From IMG/VR virus record IMGVR_UViG_3300021185_001347, positions 1 through 21,542 of that record: a stretch of DNA of 21,542 nt, one strand, 5' to 3'. This document shows, one piece after another, positions 5,098 through 20,500 of this stretch (position 1 is its first letter; each line of letters opens with the position of its first letter). The translations under genes were made by a program, and so were the position numbers. The notes below the pieces were generated by a model. It was not told where the DNA came from, did not search any database, and worked only from the letters and a program-made list of their open reading frames with translations. The DNA is from a virus.

Positions 5098-5422
5098 CGT
5101 TAAACCATTATCAGCTAACAAGATGTTCTATCGTGCTAAGCAGCTAACTAAAGAATATCGTATGTTTAGAGAGTTCATGTATGAAGAGGTTGCTGACCGC
5201 AAGGCATGGCCTTTTAAACCTGAAGACGAGCTTGACTTTGATGTTAAAGTCGGGCTCAGCTCTAAGCTTGCTGATGTAGATAACTGTATTAAACCATTAC
5301 TCGACACCTTTCAGCTGTTGTTCGAATTCAACGATAAGTACGTATTTAAAGTAACTATCGAGAAAGAACACGTTAAGAAAGGCCAAGAGTATATTAAAGT
5401 AGAAGTTAAGGAGTTTAAATAA
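5060..5422 (+). CDS. RusA-like Holliday junction resolvase
   Basis: 120 residues from the ATG at 5060, chosen because AGGAGA at 5048-5053 gives 6-base spacing; an open frame continues upstream inside the exonuclease gene. The RusA core is visible: L70-A-D72-V-D74-N-C-I-K78-P-L-L-D82-T, then F-N-D92-K-Y-V and a basic T-I-E-K-E-H-V-K-K segment. E. coli RusA uses Asp70, Asp72, Lys76 and Asp91, and the spacing here is nearly the same. It would resolve branched DNA before packaging, a job done by endonuclease I in T7. Its stop overlaps the next ATG. Confidence 0.85.
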   Translation: MPARKKIFKQKFDVKPLSANKMFYRAKQLTKEYRMFREFMYEEVADRKAWPFKPEDELDFDVKVGLSSKLADVDNCIKPLLDTFQLLFEFNDKYVFKVTIEKEHVKKGQEYIKVEVKEFK

Positions 5423-8615: not shown

Positions 8616-8903
8616 ATGTTTAAAAGAATAATTAATACGCTTAACCCAGTGTTAGCCTCTCGTGAGCCTAGCGTTGATAAAGTAGTAATGGAAATACAAG
8701 ACAACCTCGTCTTTACAGGCGCTGAAGATGACTTATATGACGCTACAGTTGAAATGCTTGCTCAGCTTGCATTATCACACGAAGCTTATGAAGTCATGAA
8801 TTCTTATGTGCTTTCAGAGAAAACACGCTGTGAAATTGAAGATAGAGTGTTAGACAGAGTAGCTCAACGCTTGTCAGATAGGCTTTCTAATACAGCTAGT
8901 TAA
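8616..8903 (+). CDS. Hypothetical helical protein
   Basis: 95 residues, mostly helical, with a C-terminal stretch KTRCEIEDRVLDRVAQRLSDRL that could form an amphipathic or coiled-coil helix. AGGAGAATAAC precedes the ATG. It is the last gene before a perfect hairpin at 8909-8936. No family recognised. Confidence 0.65.
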   Translation: MFKRIINTLNPVLASREPSVDKVVMEIQDNLVFTGAEDDLYDATVEMLAQLALSHEAYEVMNSYVLSEKTRCEIEDRVLDRVAQRLSDRLSNTAS

Positions 8904-8908
8904 AGAAC

Positions 8909-11246: not shown

Positions 11247-12197
11247 ATGTCAATACTTGAACAATCACAGGTCTACAGACCTTTTAAATACCCACAGTTT
11301 GTGGAACTAACTAAAACACATGAAGAGATTCACTGGGTCGGCGACGAAGCTGACCTTAGTGAAGACGTACAAGACTGGAAGACAAAGCTATCCGCAGGCG
11401 AAAAAGAATTCGTCACACAGATTCTTAAACTCTTTACTCAGTCAGACGTAGCGGTTGGCGATAACTATCACAACCACTTAATCCCTCGTGTTAAGAACAA
11501 CGAAGCTCGTGTTATGCTAGCATCCTTTGCTAATCGTGAAGGTGAGCATCAGCGTGCTTACTCTCTGTTAAATGACACTCTTGGCTTGCCTGAAGAGATC
11601 TACTCTGAATTCTTAGAGTACTCTGAAATGGCTGACAAGGTTGATCACATGACAGAGAATGACTCTACTACACAGTCTGGCTTAGCTCTTACTATGGCTA
11701 AATCAGTGCTTAACGAAGGTGTATCACTCTTTGCTTCTTTCGTAATGTTGCTTAATATGCAGCGCTACGGTAAGATGAAAGGCATGAACACTATTGTTGA
11801 GTGGTCTATTAGAGATGAGACTATGCACGTTGACGGTATTGCTCAGCTATTCAGATTATTCTGTGAAGAGCATCCACGTATTGTTAACGATGAGCTTAAG
11901 TCAAAGATTTACGATATGGCTCGACTGACTGTTAAACTGGAAGATAAGTTTATTGACTTAGCTTTCGCTAAACATGAGATCGAAGGTCTTAGTAAAGAAG
12001 AAGTAAAGAAGTACATTCGCTATGTAACTGACAGACGTCTGATTCAGCTAGGACTTAAAGGAAACTATAAAGTAAAAGAAAACCCACTGCCGTGGCTTGA
12101 CTGGATTCTTAATGGCACTAGCCATGATAACTTCTTTGAAAAGAGAGTTACTGAATACAGCATTGGCGGTATGGACGGAGAATGGGGTTGGTCTTAG
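11247..12197 (+). CDS. nrdB: Class I ribonucleotide reductase beta subunit
   Basis: 316 residues from the ATG at 11247, with AAGGA at 11235-11239; a GTG at 11232 is less likely. Di-metal ligands match the class I pattern: D67, E98 and H101, E157, E191 and H194 (R-D-E-T-M-H). Y105, four residues after H101, is the tyrosyl-radical site (E. coli Y122), so it looks like the classical radical-bearing type. The C-terminal tail YSIGGMDGEWGWS would dock on NrdA. It begins 4 bases after the nrdA stop, as expected for stoichiometric expression. Confidence 0.95.
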   Translation: MSILEQSQVYRPFKYPQFVELTKTHEEIHWVGDEADLSEDVQDWKTKLSAGEKEFVTQILKLFTQSDVAVGDNYHNHLIPRVKNNEARVMLASFANREGEHQRAYSLLNDTLGLPEEIYSEFLEYSEMADKVDHMTENDSTTQSGLALTMAKSVLNEGVSLFASFVMLLNMQRYGKMKGMNTIVEWSIRDETMHVDGIAQLFRLFCEEHPRIVNDELKSKIYDMARLTVKLEDKFIDLAFAKHEIEGLSKEEVKKYIRYVTDRRLIQLGLKGNYKVKENPLPWLDWILNGTSHDNFFEKRVTEYSIGGMDGEWGWS

Positions 12198-13383: not shown

Positions 13384-14235
13384 ATGTTAAAATTGATTAA
13401 GAGTTTTGCGCTAGCCGCAATTTTAGTAGTAAGCTTTACGGCAGCAAGTGTTGCTCAAAGAAACTTACCTATAGAAGCAGAGCCGCAATATAAGATCATT
13501 GTGCTCACAGCTAACAACACGCCTACTATTGCAGTTCAAGGTGAGTTCGCAGCTGGCATAACTAAAACTCTACGTAAAGTAATTAACAAATACCCACACA
13601 TTACTACGATAGCATTCCAGTCACCTGGTGGAAACGCCAATGAAGCCTTTGATATGGCTCAATTACTTAACGAGAAGAAGTGGACTACAATTGTACCACA
13701 AGGTAGAATCTGTTTGTCTGCTTGCGCTATTGCCTTTATGGCAGGTTCAGAATACATTGTAGAAGGAATTCTAGGCTACCACAATGCGTGGATTCCATCT
13801 GAGCAGTCAGTATACACAAAGAAAGAGTTTAACGAAGGGTTTAACTTAGCGCAGCTTATCGGTGGTCAAACACTTTATTACAAGGCTGCTAACGGCTTTG
13901 TCTTTGATTTTGCGCTACAAGTACTATACAAAACATCACCTACAAAGTTCGCTGTGTTTACAGAAACAAAGCAGTTCTATAACCAAATGGTTTCAGATAG
14001 AGATGACTTTACTACGTATCACGAACAGAAGGGTCAAGTGCCTGTCTGGGATAATAGGATGATGGGAACAATAGCTACTGCATTAATTGAGAAAGAAACG
14101 GCAAATCCTACGTTCTTTATCAGTGACGTTATCGAAATCGTAGATCAACCTTGCGAGGAGATAAGCAATGAAATACAACAAAACAAACGGTCACAGCCAG
14201 CGTCAACAGGCTATCTGGCTATTACAAATGGCTAA
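13384..14235 (+). CDS. Exported ClpP/crotonase-fold protein
   Basis: 283 residues with a clear Sec signal peptide: K3, hydrophobic 8-20, and an A-S-V-A-Q site giving cleavage after about A24. The mature part has a ClpP-like core: hydrophobic strand ITTIAFQ then S80-P-G-G83-N-A-N-E-A, and R-I-C110-L-S112-A-C114-A-I-A-F-M-A-G with candidate nucleophile S112 followed by G-Y-H133 in the His position. This resembles periplasmic ClpP-like proteins of proteobacteria (COG3904 type). The two Cys flanking the Ser could form a disulfide in the periplasm. A phage gene for an exported protease-like protein may act in envelope modification, superinfection exclusion or lysis; no evidence decides. RBS AAGGGAA precedes the ATG. 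Its last 68 bases overlap the next ORF. Confidence 0.75.
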   Translation: MLKLIKSFALAAILVVSFTAASVAQRNLPIEAEPQYKIIVLTANNTPTIAVQGEFAAGITKTLRKVINKYPHITTIAFQSPGGNANEAFDMAQLLNEKKWTTIVPQGRICLSACAIAFMAGSEYIVEGILGYHNAWIPSEQSVYTKKEFNEGFNLAQLIGGQTLYYKAANGFVFDFALQVLYKTSPTKFAVFTETKQFYNQMVSDRDDFTTYHEQKGQVPVWDNRMMGTIATALIEKETANPTFFISDVIEIVDQPCEEISNEIQQNKRSQPASTGYLAITNG

Positions 14236-14308
14236 AGACAAAGGCGAAGGACAAACACGTCCACAAAAAGGCAACAATAAGCCTAAAAAGCGTCATTCAG
14301 CTAGTTAA
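14168..14308 (+). CDS. Small basic protein overlapping the exported ClpP-like gene
   Basis: 46 residues, very basic and Gln/Asn-rich (begins MKYNKTNGHSQRQQAIWLLQ, ends KPKKRHSAS). AGGAG about 8 bases before the ATG is one of the better ribosome sites here. It overlaps the upstream gene by 68 bases in another frame. The basic tail suggests nucleic-acid binding, which is inference. Confidence 0.5.
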   Translation: MKYNKTNGHSQRQQAIWLLQMAKDKGEGQTRPQKGNNKPKKRHSAS

Positions 14309-14338
14309 AGGATAAAGGTATATCCTAACCAGTTAAAT

Positions 14339-15371: not shown

Positions 15372-15425
15372 ACCCTCAGATACTTTAGGACATCCCGTAT
15401 GGGATATCTTAGAGTGTCTGAGGGT
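15372..15425 (+). terminator. Very long hairpin with tetraloop
   Basis: Bases 15372-15396 pair with 15401-15425 across a GTAT loop: 25 positions with three G-U pairs and one C-A mismatch. It begins 17 bases after the last small gene. A T7 run follows at 15442-15448. It could terminate transcription, or be an RNase III-type processing site or a DNA-level cruciform next to the candidate origin. Confidence 0.75.
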
Positions 15426-15655
15426 ATAAGTCTTAACCTTATTTTTTTCGAAGTGAAGAAGAGAAGAGAGATAGTATAAGAGAGAACACGCTATGCGCTC
15501 ACTAATAATATCACTCTAACTGCACTTACCTGATAGCTTTTTATATAATAACTACTAACAACTACCATATGAAGTAACGCATATTGGTGTTTATTATTAG
15601 TCTTAGCATAGTTAACCTCTCATAGTTATTCTACTAAGTATACTATAGAGATAGC

Positions 15656-15708
15656 TACTAGTTAATTACTACTAGTTAAGACTACTAGTTAAGACTCCTA
15701 GTTATAAC
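15656..15708. repeat. 13-base tandem repeat array, about four copies
   Basis: Units TACTAGTTAATTAC (15656), TACTAGTTAAGAC (15670 and 15683, identical) and TCCTAGTTATAAC (15696). Each contains CTAGTTA; ACTAGT within most units is itself palindromic. Confidence 0.75.
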
Positions 15709-15783
15709 ATAGGGTATAGCCTAAGGTAATAACCTATGGGTAATAACTTATAGGGAATAACTTAAGGTATATAACCTATAGGG
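15702..15783. repeat. Degenerate AT-rich iterons ending in AGGG
   Basis: Six consecutive units of about 12-16 bases: TATAACATAGGG, TATAGCCTAAGG, TAATAACCTATGGG, TAATAACTTATAGGG, AATAACTTAAGG and TATATAACCTATAGGG. They share TAAC/CTATAGGG and carry near-palindromic cores such as CCTATAGG. The TATAGGG core also recalls single-subunit phage RNA polymerase promoters. Confidence 0.65.
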
Positions 15784-15965
15784 TCTTCTTCAGAGCCCTC
15801 TCTTCTTTAACTAGCTGAATCGACAAACATGATACAGCTAAATAAAGAAATGATATATAATGTCTTAGGAAGAAATATCAATTAACGCCACTAGCTACCA
15901 AAGAGACATACTCCCTGAAGTCTGCTAGCCGTTATCCTACACATTATCGCTATACCTCAGGCTAC

Positions 15966-16050
15966 ACACACAGTATAACCCACAGCAAGCCGACATATAC
16001 GGTGCTATCTCGTGGTCATACACACAGTATAACCCACGGTAAGCCGACAT
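15966..16050. repeat. 31-base direct repeat, two copies 54 bases apart
   Basis: Copies at 15966-15996 and 16020-16050 begin ACACACAGTATAACCCAC and end AAGCCGACAT, differing at two positions. ACAGTATA recurs at about 16056 and AAGCCGAC at 16204, as partial copies. Confidence 0.8.
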
Positions 16051-16203
16051 GGCGCACAGTATACCTCGAGCTATGCGGCATGCTAGGCGCCGGGTGCGGG
16101 CTGCCTATGCGCGGTGCCAGGTGTTGGCCCACCCCCGTTTTAACTCCGGGGATGACTAACGGCGCTGCCGGTGCTGTCGAGGAACTGAGGCAAGCTCCTA
16201 TTA

Positions 16204-16971: not shown

Positions 16972-17008
16972 GGTTCACATGAGCCATGACTAACGGTTCA
17001 CATGAGCC
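16972..17008. promoter_or_regulatory. Repeated palindromic element, operator-like
   Basis: GGTTCACATGAGCC occurs exactly twice (16972-16985 and 16995-17008), 23 bases start to start, about two helical turns. Each copy is a near-palindrome with central ACAT. It lies just upstream of a terminator, between the early genes and virion genes. Confidence 0.5.
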
Positions 17009-17017
17009 GTAACTACT

Positions 17018-17571: not shown

Positions 17572-20500
17572 ATGTTTAATAACATTATTCCAGAAAGCGC
17601 TGAAGTTGTTGTCTCAGCATCTCAGCCCGCTAACGTGTCTGAAGGCTTAATTTGGTTCAACCCTACTACGTCGCAAGCAATGATCTACGCAAGTGGTGCT
17701 TTTGTTGCGATGACAGCAGGTTCAACTGCTCTTCAGAGAGACATTTATGTTGCCGGTACGCCTTCAGGTACGTACGATGGTAACCTTACGACATTTCCGT
17801 CAAATTACGTAGTAGCTACTCCCCATTCTGCTGTAGAAGTATACATGAATGGTATCCACATGACACAAGGTGTGGACATTACTGCTAATACCGGAACTAC
17901 TATTGTATTCGCTACTCCCGTAGCTGCTGCTGATGAGATTGTTTGCGTTTCTTATGGAGACGTTGAAAACACTATCGTCGGTATATCATACGGTGATCCC
18001 GAAGTACAAACTTACTTAACAAATAACAACTATGCTACAGCAACTGATGTGGCAACTGCTGTTACTAACCTTATTGATGCAGCTCCTGGCTCTCTCGATA
18101 CTCTTAACGAGATTGCAGACTCTCTCAATAACGATAATGACTTCGCAGGTACAATGACTACCCAGCTTGCTACTAAGTTCGCTTCTGCTGACTTTGATAG
18201 CACTTTTGACACACGTTTGGCAACAAAGACTACTGCTGACGTTGCAGAGGCTACCGCTGATAATAAATATGTCACAGACTTACAGCTTGCTAAGCTTATC
18301 GGTATCGAAGATGCTGCTACGGCAGACCAGACAGATGTCGAGATTAAGACTGCATATGAAAACAACGCAGATACCAACGCTTTCACTGATGCAGATCACA
18401 CGAAGCTAGATGGTATCGAAGCCGCAGCGACTGCTGACCAAACTGGTGCTGAGATTAAAGCTCTGTACGAAGGTGAAGCAGACACTAACGCATTCGTAGA
18501 TGCTGATCGTACTAAGCTCGATGGTATTGAAGATGCTGCTACAGGTGATCAAACAGCTACTGAAATCGAAAGCTTGTATGAAAGCCAAGCAGATACTAAT
18601 AAGTTTACCGATGCGGATCACACTAAGCTTGACGGCATTGAAGCCTTAGCTACTGCTGATCAAACAGACTCTGAGATTCGTGCTGCTGTAGAAGCTGCTA
18701 ACGACTCTAATGTCTTTACTGACGCTGACCACACAAAGCTTAATGGTATCGAAGATGCGGCTACCGCCGATCAGACCGACGCAGAAATCCGTACCGCTGT
18801 TGAAGCAGCCACTGATTCTAATGTCTTTACTGATGCTGACCATACAAAGCTTGATGGCATTGAAACAGCTGCAACCGCTGATCAGACTGGTGCTGAAATC
18901 CGTACTAGCCTTTTCGCTGAGTCAAACACTAACGTTTTAACAGACGCTTTGCTTACTAAGCTGACTAATATCGAAGCTACTGCTACTACTGATCAAACTG
19001 ATGCAGAAATCAAGACTGCTTATGAGAATAACTCAGATACTAACGTATTCGATGATGCCGCTCAGGTTAAACTAGCAGCTATTGAAGCTTCTGCTACTGC
19101 AGATCAGACTGGTGCTGAAATTAAGTCTTTGTATGAAGCAGAGGCAGATACTAACGCGCTTACTGATGCTCGTGTTACTGTTGTTGATGCTGTTACATCT
19201 TATGGTGTTACATTCAGCCAGTCAACTGACGCTTCAGCTGCTCGTACTACTCTTGGTCTTGGCGACGTTGCAACCACTGCTATTGCTGATTATGCTACTG
19301 CAGCCCAAGGTTCAACTGCTGATACAGCTTTACAAAACCTTACAACTACTGCTATAGGTACTCTACAGGACGTTACCGTTGCCTCCGTGGCTGACGCTGA
19401 CGTACTTCAGTACAACACTGCAGCAGGCGTATGGCAGAACAAAAGCTTGTCTAACGCTGGTTTCTCTACTGTTGCTACTTCAAACAGCTACACAGATCTA
19501 GATAACCTACCAACTATCACAGCTGCTGGTCAAGCGCTTATTGACGACGCAGATGTTACTGCTCAGCGTACAACTCTCGGTCTTGCTACCGTTGCTGTTA
19601 GTGCTGACTATAGTGACCTGGTTAACACACCAACAAACGTAAGTACTTTCACTAACGACGCTAACTACTTAGTAGCTGCTGACGTTGCTAACTCACTACT
19701 TGATGGCGACTTCACTTCAGCAGGCGTTATGAAGACTGACGGTTCTGGAGTTTACACTACTGAAGTATTGGCTACTGTCGCCTCTTCTGGTGATTACACA
19801 GACCTTTCAGGTGTTCCTACTAACGTTTCTGCGTTTACTAACGATGCTACTTATCAGACAGCTGCTCAAGTTACTGCTTCTATAGCTACTGTTATTGATG
19901 CTGCTCCTGCGGCACTTGACACTTTGAATGAGCTAGCTGCTTCATTAAACGATGATGCTGACTTTGCTGGCTCTATGACAACTGCTTTAGCTGCTAAGGT
20001 TGACGACAGCCAAATCTCTACATTTGCCTTGACTTTCCTTGACGATGCTGATGCTGCTGCCGTTCGCGCTACCCTTGATGTTGACCAAGCTGGTGCAAAC
20101 CACTCTGTTGACGTAACTCTAGCTGGATCTTATGACTACTTGACTCTTTCTAACCAGGAAATCACTCTGGGTCAGATCGATGCAACTACTGACATTTCTG
20201 GTCTAGGTACTATGGCTGTTGAAACCGCTACTGACTATGTAGCTACAGCAGACCTTAGCGAGCTAGTAGACGATCGCGTAAGTACTCTTATCGTTGCAGG
20301 TGATAACATCACTTCTACATACGATGATACTGCAAACACTTTGACTATTGCTGCCGAAGGTAGTAGCATTATCGAGAACGTTAAGAACGTATCCGGTAGC
20401 TTGCTTACTGCTGGTACTGTAGTTTATCAGTCTGGTTCTACAGGAACTGTTGCTGAAGTACAACCTGCGGATAACACATCTGCTTCTACTATGCCTGCTA

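Follow-up and report, generated by a model that had tools for sequence, protein, structure and literature searches.

Among phages with a T7-type RNA polymerase of their own, replication origins have been described mainly for T7 and close relatives. In T7, the promoters phi1.1A and phi1.1B mark the primary origin, with phiOL, phi6.5, and phiOR serving as secondary origins, and the origin promoters are oriented in the same way as the T7 genes. A search of literature that lacked most subscription papers found nothing relevant to an origin similar to the one proposed here, a result of little weight. Among the promoters of other single-subunit RNA polymerases, that of Syn5 has been mapped and reads ATTGGGCACCCGTAA (PMC3950665).

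The analysed window is a 21,542-base piece of an uncultured IMG/VR virus, a marine phage, and carries all of its genes on the plus strand. The gene order runs from a dCMP deaminase, a thymidylate synthase-like protein, a MazG-like protein, a 5'-3' exonuclease, and a RusA-like protein through a T7-type primase-helicase, ClpP, a ribonucleotide reductase NrdA-glutaredoxin (NrdA-Grx), NrdB, and tRNA-Thr to a gene-free stretch of ~1.1 kb, which is followed by an HNH endonuclease and a long tail-fibre gene. The window had no DNA-level match to any phage record. Based on its primase-helicase (PHROG 239, E = 9e-143), the closest cultured phages are Roseobacter phage CRP-7 (52%), Pelagibacter phage Kolga (45%), and DSS3_VP1/PM1 (44%), and a search through the ORF at 13384–14235 found no relatives. 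A 5.3-kb contig, L005 (IMGVR_UViG_3300009608_000286), encodes proteins 98–100% identical to those of the window and thus represents the same phage in another record. The relatives that bear the repeat array described below are uncultured fragments throughout and, with the window, give three independent cases: the window itself, L007 with its near-copy L167, and L168. Two further contigs, G002 and G025 (IMGVR_UViG_3300017950_000014), are 99.5% identical in their overlap and represent a single phage species, of which they cover ~67 kb in total.

The relatives encode a complete T7-type RNA polymerase (PF00940, E ~1e-76, open frames of 802–819 aa) and a DNA polymerase of the polymerase I type (PHROG 17, E = 4e-104), and no own RNA polymerase gene lies within the window. 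The gene set of a T7-type origin was thus found, with the primase-helicase in the window and both polymerases only in the relatives. Besides the ordinary RNA polymerase gene, a structural-region ORF of 1500–1900 aa in G025 (17492–23164), G004–G006, and G031 weakly matches PF00940 and possibly encodes a virion-carried RNA polymerase.

The original prediction had described two adjoining repeat arrays, four CTAGTTA units running into six units of a second type, in a gene-free region. In agreement with this setting, no ORF of at least 50 aa was found between 15151 and 16001, and the four CTAGTTA units were located at 15658, 15672, 15685, and 15698 (spacing 14/13/13). Tandem Repeats Finder (TRF) recovered both repeat sets, the first at 15655–15704 (period 13, 3.8 copies, score 77) and the second at 15716–15782 (period 14, 4.9 copies, score 76), but these form one ten-unit array in a single register, with unit starts at 15655, 15669, 15682, 15695, 15708, 15720, 15733, 15747, 15761, and 15775. 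In this register, C is the first base of all ten units, and TAA or TTA are the last three bases of most. The six units of the second set are present but degenerate, since TAACCTATAGGG occurs exactly once and once more with one mismatch. The self-identity of 15639–15785 at lags 11–15 peaked at 0.46, a value reached by none of 2,000 dinucleotide shuffles (mean 0.34, maximum 0.44), which confirmed that the repeats are real and beyond chance. Matches to the position weight matrix of the unit are densest in the window at 15601–15756, and the units showed no excess of dyad symmetry in the window. The array thus provides the tandem repeats in one register that are expected of an iteron origin; a cognate initiator gene, also expected there, had no candidate in the window, and a 123-aa gene beside the array of the relatives had neither a family match nor a homologue in the window.

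Ten matching units are also present in both L007 and L168 at the corresponding genome position, which in L007 lies 8.4 kb past the primase-helicase gene and ~4–5 kb past NrdB. Taken alone, the periodicity of these two arrays is weaker, being reached by 8 and 70 of 2,000 shuffles, respectively. The units of the window and of the relatives share an identity of 0.57 in phase, compared with 0.17–0.35 in other phases, and the arrays of L007 and L168 differ by indels of 13 and 14 nt, one whole unit each. The exact window array pattern had no matches in viral contigs, and the pattern of the array flank retrieved only the known family and coding coincidences. G006 and the DSS3 phages lack a ten-unit array.

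Because the relatives encode a T7-type RNA polymerase, a promoter-like motif was sought de novo across gene-free stretches. The leading motif in those of the window, ATWCAGCTAGTTAAAG, occurs at the four sites listed in Table 1, three of which are exact. With up to three mismatches allowed, the window contained five matches as opposed to 0.92 expected (reached by none of 100 shuffles). The same pattern had no further intergenic match in viral contigs, and sigma-70 promoters were fewer in the window than in shuffles. At the minus-strand copy, no minus-strand gene is annotated or plausible; since nothing on this strand could be its gene product, the putative antisense promoter would serve the array or its RNA. 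By analogy with other marine phage promoters, the leftward transcript would start at G15805.

Table 1. Positions of the repeat array, the promoter-like motifs, and the flanking elements in the window.
Feature	Position	Strand	Basis and remarks
Promoter-like motif ATACAGCTAGTTAAAG before ORF 8955 and NrdA-Grx (9239)	8890..8905	+	Counterpart at L007 11510
Promoter-like motif ATTCAGCTAGTTAAAG before tRNA-Thr (14339) and small ORFs	14295..14310	+	Motif search
Strong hairpin, inverted repeat I2, 25-nt arms, 84% complementary	15372..15425	-	Repeat search; not listed by the pattern scanner
Purine-rich GAAGTGAAGAAGAGAAGAGAGAT; complement of the 5' end (GAAGAGAG) of the predicted leftward RNA	15453..15475	+	Sequences and predicted folds
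Possible extra degenerate units (CATAGTTAACC, CATAGTTATT, CTACTAAGTATA, CTATAGAGATAG)	~15607..15654	.	Sequence reading and dense unit matches at 15601–15756; weak
Array of ten AT-rich units of 12–14 bp in one register (CTACTAGTTAAGA ... CCTATAGGG)	15655..15783	.	TRF, shuffle test, phase test; GC ~31%
Promoter-like motif ATTCAGCTAGTTAAAG, leftward into the array	15805..15820	-	Exact 16-mer in common with +14295 and +8890
Weaker divergent promoter-like motif ATACAGCTAAATAAAG, rightward, two mismatches	15832..15847	+	Degenerate counterparts at L007 18857 and G025 5346

L007 and its kin carry the motif as TTCAGCRCCATAAAGA, which L007 has at 5398, at 11510 (55 bp before NrdA), and at −18746, besides a weaker copy at 18857. 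By position, the sites of the window and L007 pair as 8890/11510 before NrdA, 15832/18857 on the right-hand side of the array, and −15820/−18746 facing the array, and the minus-strand motif facing the array is orthologous in L007, L167, and L168. In G002 and G025, six strong intergenic TTCAGCRCCATAAAGA sites are in sense orientation, five of them 21–155 bp upstream of a gene, and the single antisense site faces the array; these orientation statistics rest on few sites. The DSS3 phages DSS3_PM1 (MN602267) and DSS3_VP1 (MN602266) contain ~15 copies of an analogous motif, ATAGGKKRCGTTAAAGARG, which are nearly all in sense orientation and represent a candidate promoter, and the motif of the distant G004–G006 is GAACCCGTTAAATTAACCCTA. 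On the minus strand of the DSS3 phages, only weak or coding matches to their promoter motif were obtained, and an antisense promoter was found neither in these phages nor in G006. The DSS3 motif, ATAGGGTGCGTTAAAG, closely resembles the mapped Syn5 promoter ATTGGGCACCCGTAA (PMC3950665), and this likeness supports reading it as a promoter. The putative promoters of these marine phages are likewise compact (~15–16 bp) with an AT-rich end, ...GTTAAAG or ...GTAAG, and appear to differ in the core, which is CAGCTAGT in the window and CAGCRCCA in its relatives. We thus infer that ATWCAGCTAGTTAAAG and TTCAGCRCCATAAAGA are promoters of the phage RNA polymerase, and for three marine phage groups, among them the cultured DSS3 phages, the motifs supply sequences on which the RNA polymerases can be tested.

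Several other repeats were observed in these genomes. Between the divergent motifs of L007, at 18753–18847, and also in L167, four G-rich 23-bp repeats, ACTTGGGGTGGTACTGAGGGTAG, are present; they are absent in the window, where the divergent motifs are 11 bp apart. In the GC-rich gene-free stretch downstream of the window array, CACAGTATAACCCACRGYAAGC occurs three times at 15966–16076, and parts of it recur in L007. Another gene-free stretch of the window contains two copies of the 23-bp repeat GGTTCACATGAGCCATAACTAAC (16972–17015). CRP-7 (L003) carries an intergenic array of ACCTTGATATA units with a period of 11 in its early region, at 1441–1530.

For each promoter, the downstream DNA was ranked by its duplex stability against all stretches of the same genome. 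Since the motif length, the length of the compared stretches, and the set of relatives were picked with the data in view, the ranks and counts are descriptive. In the window, the DNA downstream of the antisense promoter belongs to the weakest 0.8% at 150 bp and the weakest 0.2% at 300 bp, whereas the other three promoters all rank at 22% or worse at 150 bp and at 37–98% at 300 bp. The rank varies with length, and at 60 bp the antisense promoter stands at 7.2%, behind 15847. In L007 and G025 it reaches only 1–6% because both genomes are AT-rich throughout, and in G025 the promoter at 23193 outranks it at 60 bp. Easily opened AT-rich DNA downstream of a promoter-like motif, as in a T7-type origin, was thus found. 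The more distant G004 and G005 each have one promoter that leads into the weakest DNA (at 250 bp, 0.1% in G004 and 0.2% in G005), with AT-rich repeats right after the motif at 62735–63080 in G004 and at 64857–64947 in G005, the latter with GACGTC; in G006, no promoter stands out by downstream instability. When the 17 promoters of T7 were ranked at 60 bp as a control, phiOL (0.2%), phi1.1B (0.4%), phi6.5 (0.9%), phi10 (1.6%), and phiOR (1.7%) took the lead, of which phi10 is not known to be an origin. A simple computed test, a promoter followed by the weakest DNA, thus recovers the T7 origins.

The array, the dispersed motif, its lone antisense copy facing the array, the conservation of this arrangement, the weak duplex, and the T7-like replication genes, all established by computation, would best be explained by a T7-type origin, with DNA synthesis primed by the leftward transcript within the AT-rich, iterated DNA, and we consider the chances of this interpretation about even. 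Judged from sequence, the motif would act as promoter and its transcript as primer, and replication would start at the locus. The phage single-subunit RNA polymerase would start at the leftward promoter (15820–15805) and enter a stretch of ~300 bp that is AT-rich and unusually unstable, with the ten 12–14 bp repeats at its start. The RNA would then remain paired, or the T7-like DNA polymerase would take it over to prime the leading strand, and the T7-like primase-helicase would enter on the opened strand; the repeats might either ease unwinding or bind a phage protein. The original prediction of origin iterons appears to fit the evidence better than any rival, but the promoter beside the array would also be part of the proposed site. 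Cumulative GC skew, which had been suggested as a check, has a peak near the array in the window but runs straight through the array in G025, and was uninformative. A tentative and more specific version, which we regard as doubtful, is a hybrid origin in which a dedicated antisense T7-type promoter, used for priming only, fires into an iteron array bound by a putative phage initiator; if true, transcription priming and iteron recognition would act at one site.

A transcript without a gene to encode might also be a product in its own right, and the leftward promoter might make a folded non-coding RNA, with the array as RNA body, that acts on phage or host RNA, for example in an early-to-late switch. 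The predicted leftward RNA is stabler than shuffles in L007 (z = −4.5) and L168 (z = −5.9), and its 5' end can pair with a purine/pyrimidine block beyond the array in all four phages, so that pairing of the GAAGTGAAGAAGAGAAGAGAGAT type flanks the array in the relatives too. The hairpin to the left of the array is followed at once by TTTTTT on the minus strand, with a plus-strand T-run only ~20 nt later, and could end the leftward transcript. However, the folding of the window array is at chance level (z = −0.4), L007 and L168 pair different partners and share only the closing stem, and the plus strand folds equally well, as would repeats of near-palindromic units in general. A fold kept across the relatives, as in a structured RNA, was not found, and a comparison with Rfam gave only the tRNA above threshold in the window and nothing credible in L007, which makes this explanation unlikely. 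The proposal that the TATAGGG ends of the units are tandem start sites of the phage RNA polymerase was not supported and is hardly credible. Despite a superficial likeness to the end of the T7 promoter, CTATAGGG, a search for TATAGGG before other phage genes found copies in the window only inside the array (15749 and 15777), none of the relatives has it in its array, and a T7-type promoter is longer than the 12–14 bp from one unit to the next; the distinct motif ATWCAGCTAGTTAAAG, dispersed between genes, fits the promoter role. A putative promoter and a repeat array are thus both present, but the promoter lies beside the array and not inside its units.

The location of the array between the replication and structural modules would also suit a packaging or genome-end site, where the array would bind the small subunit of the terminase or border a terminal repeat, like the short repeats near the T7 ends. 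Contig G002 stops at the array and G026 just past it, and 1.7 kb separate the terminase gene of DSS3_PM1 from the gap that corresponds to the array region. Tandem repeats are a common place for contig breaks, however, the contigs of the window, L007, and G025 continue through the array, and the terminase-like gene of G025 is 9 kb off; as a packaging site would moreover predict no antisense RNA polymerase promoter, we regard this function as quite improbable. An operator, at which a phage regulator would bind the array and control the divergent pair 15820/15832, would fit with repeats that adjoin two divergent promoters, with a second, G-rich array (4 x 23 bp) between them in L007, and with the tolerance of the array for indels of unit length. 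Against it, a regulator was not found, the 123-aa neighbour gene of the relatives offering no recognisable candidate, T7-type promoters are not usually repressed via distal arrays, and the ten units extend over 130 bp downstream of the predicted start and not upstream; the operator is likewise quite improbable.

The proposed transcription-primed origin resembles described systems in part. As at iteron origins of the plasmid Rep or lambda O type, tandem units in one register adjoin AT-rich DNA, but no initiator gene was found, the units are short and degenerate, and a putative RNA polymerase promoter is included. The Naomviridae DSS3_VP1 and DSS3_PM1 possess a related primase-helicase, T7-like RNA and DNA polymerases, and, as here, an intergenic promoter-like motif at a module boundary; unlike here, their promoter motifs are all sense except for weak matches, and the ten-unit array is missing. 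With T7, this family shares a T7-type DNA polymerase, primase-helicase, and RNA polymerase, and, as at the T7 primary origin (phi1.1A/phi1.1B and an AT-rich stretch), the putative promoter leads straight into the least stable DNA. The T7 origin has two sense promoters and CYTTAAG at +6, +19, and +28 after phi1.1B, without a ten-unit array, whereas the promoter proposed here is antisense to all genes, faces ten units, and ends the replication module; such an antisense promoter would split priming from gene expression and thus make the two roles separately testable.
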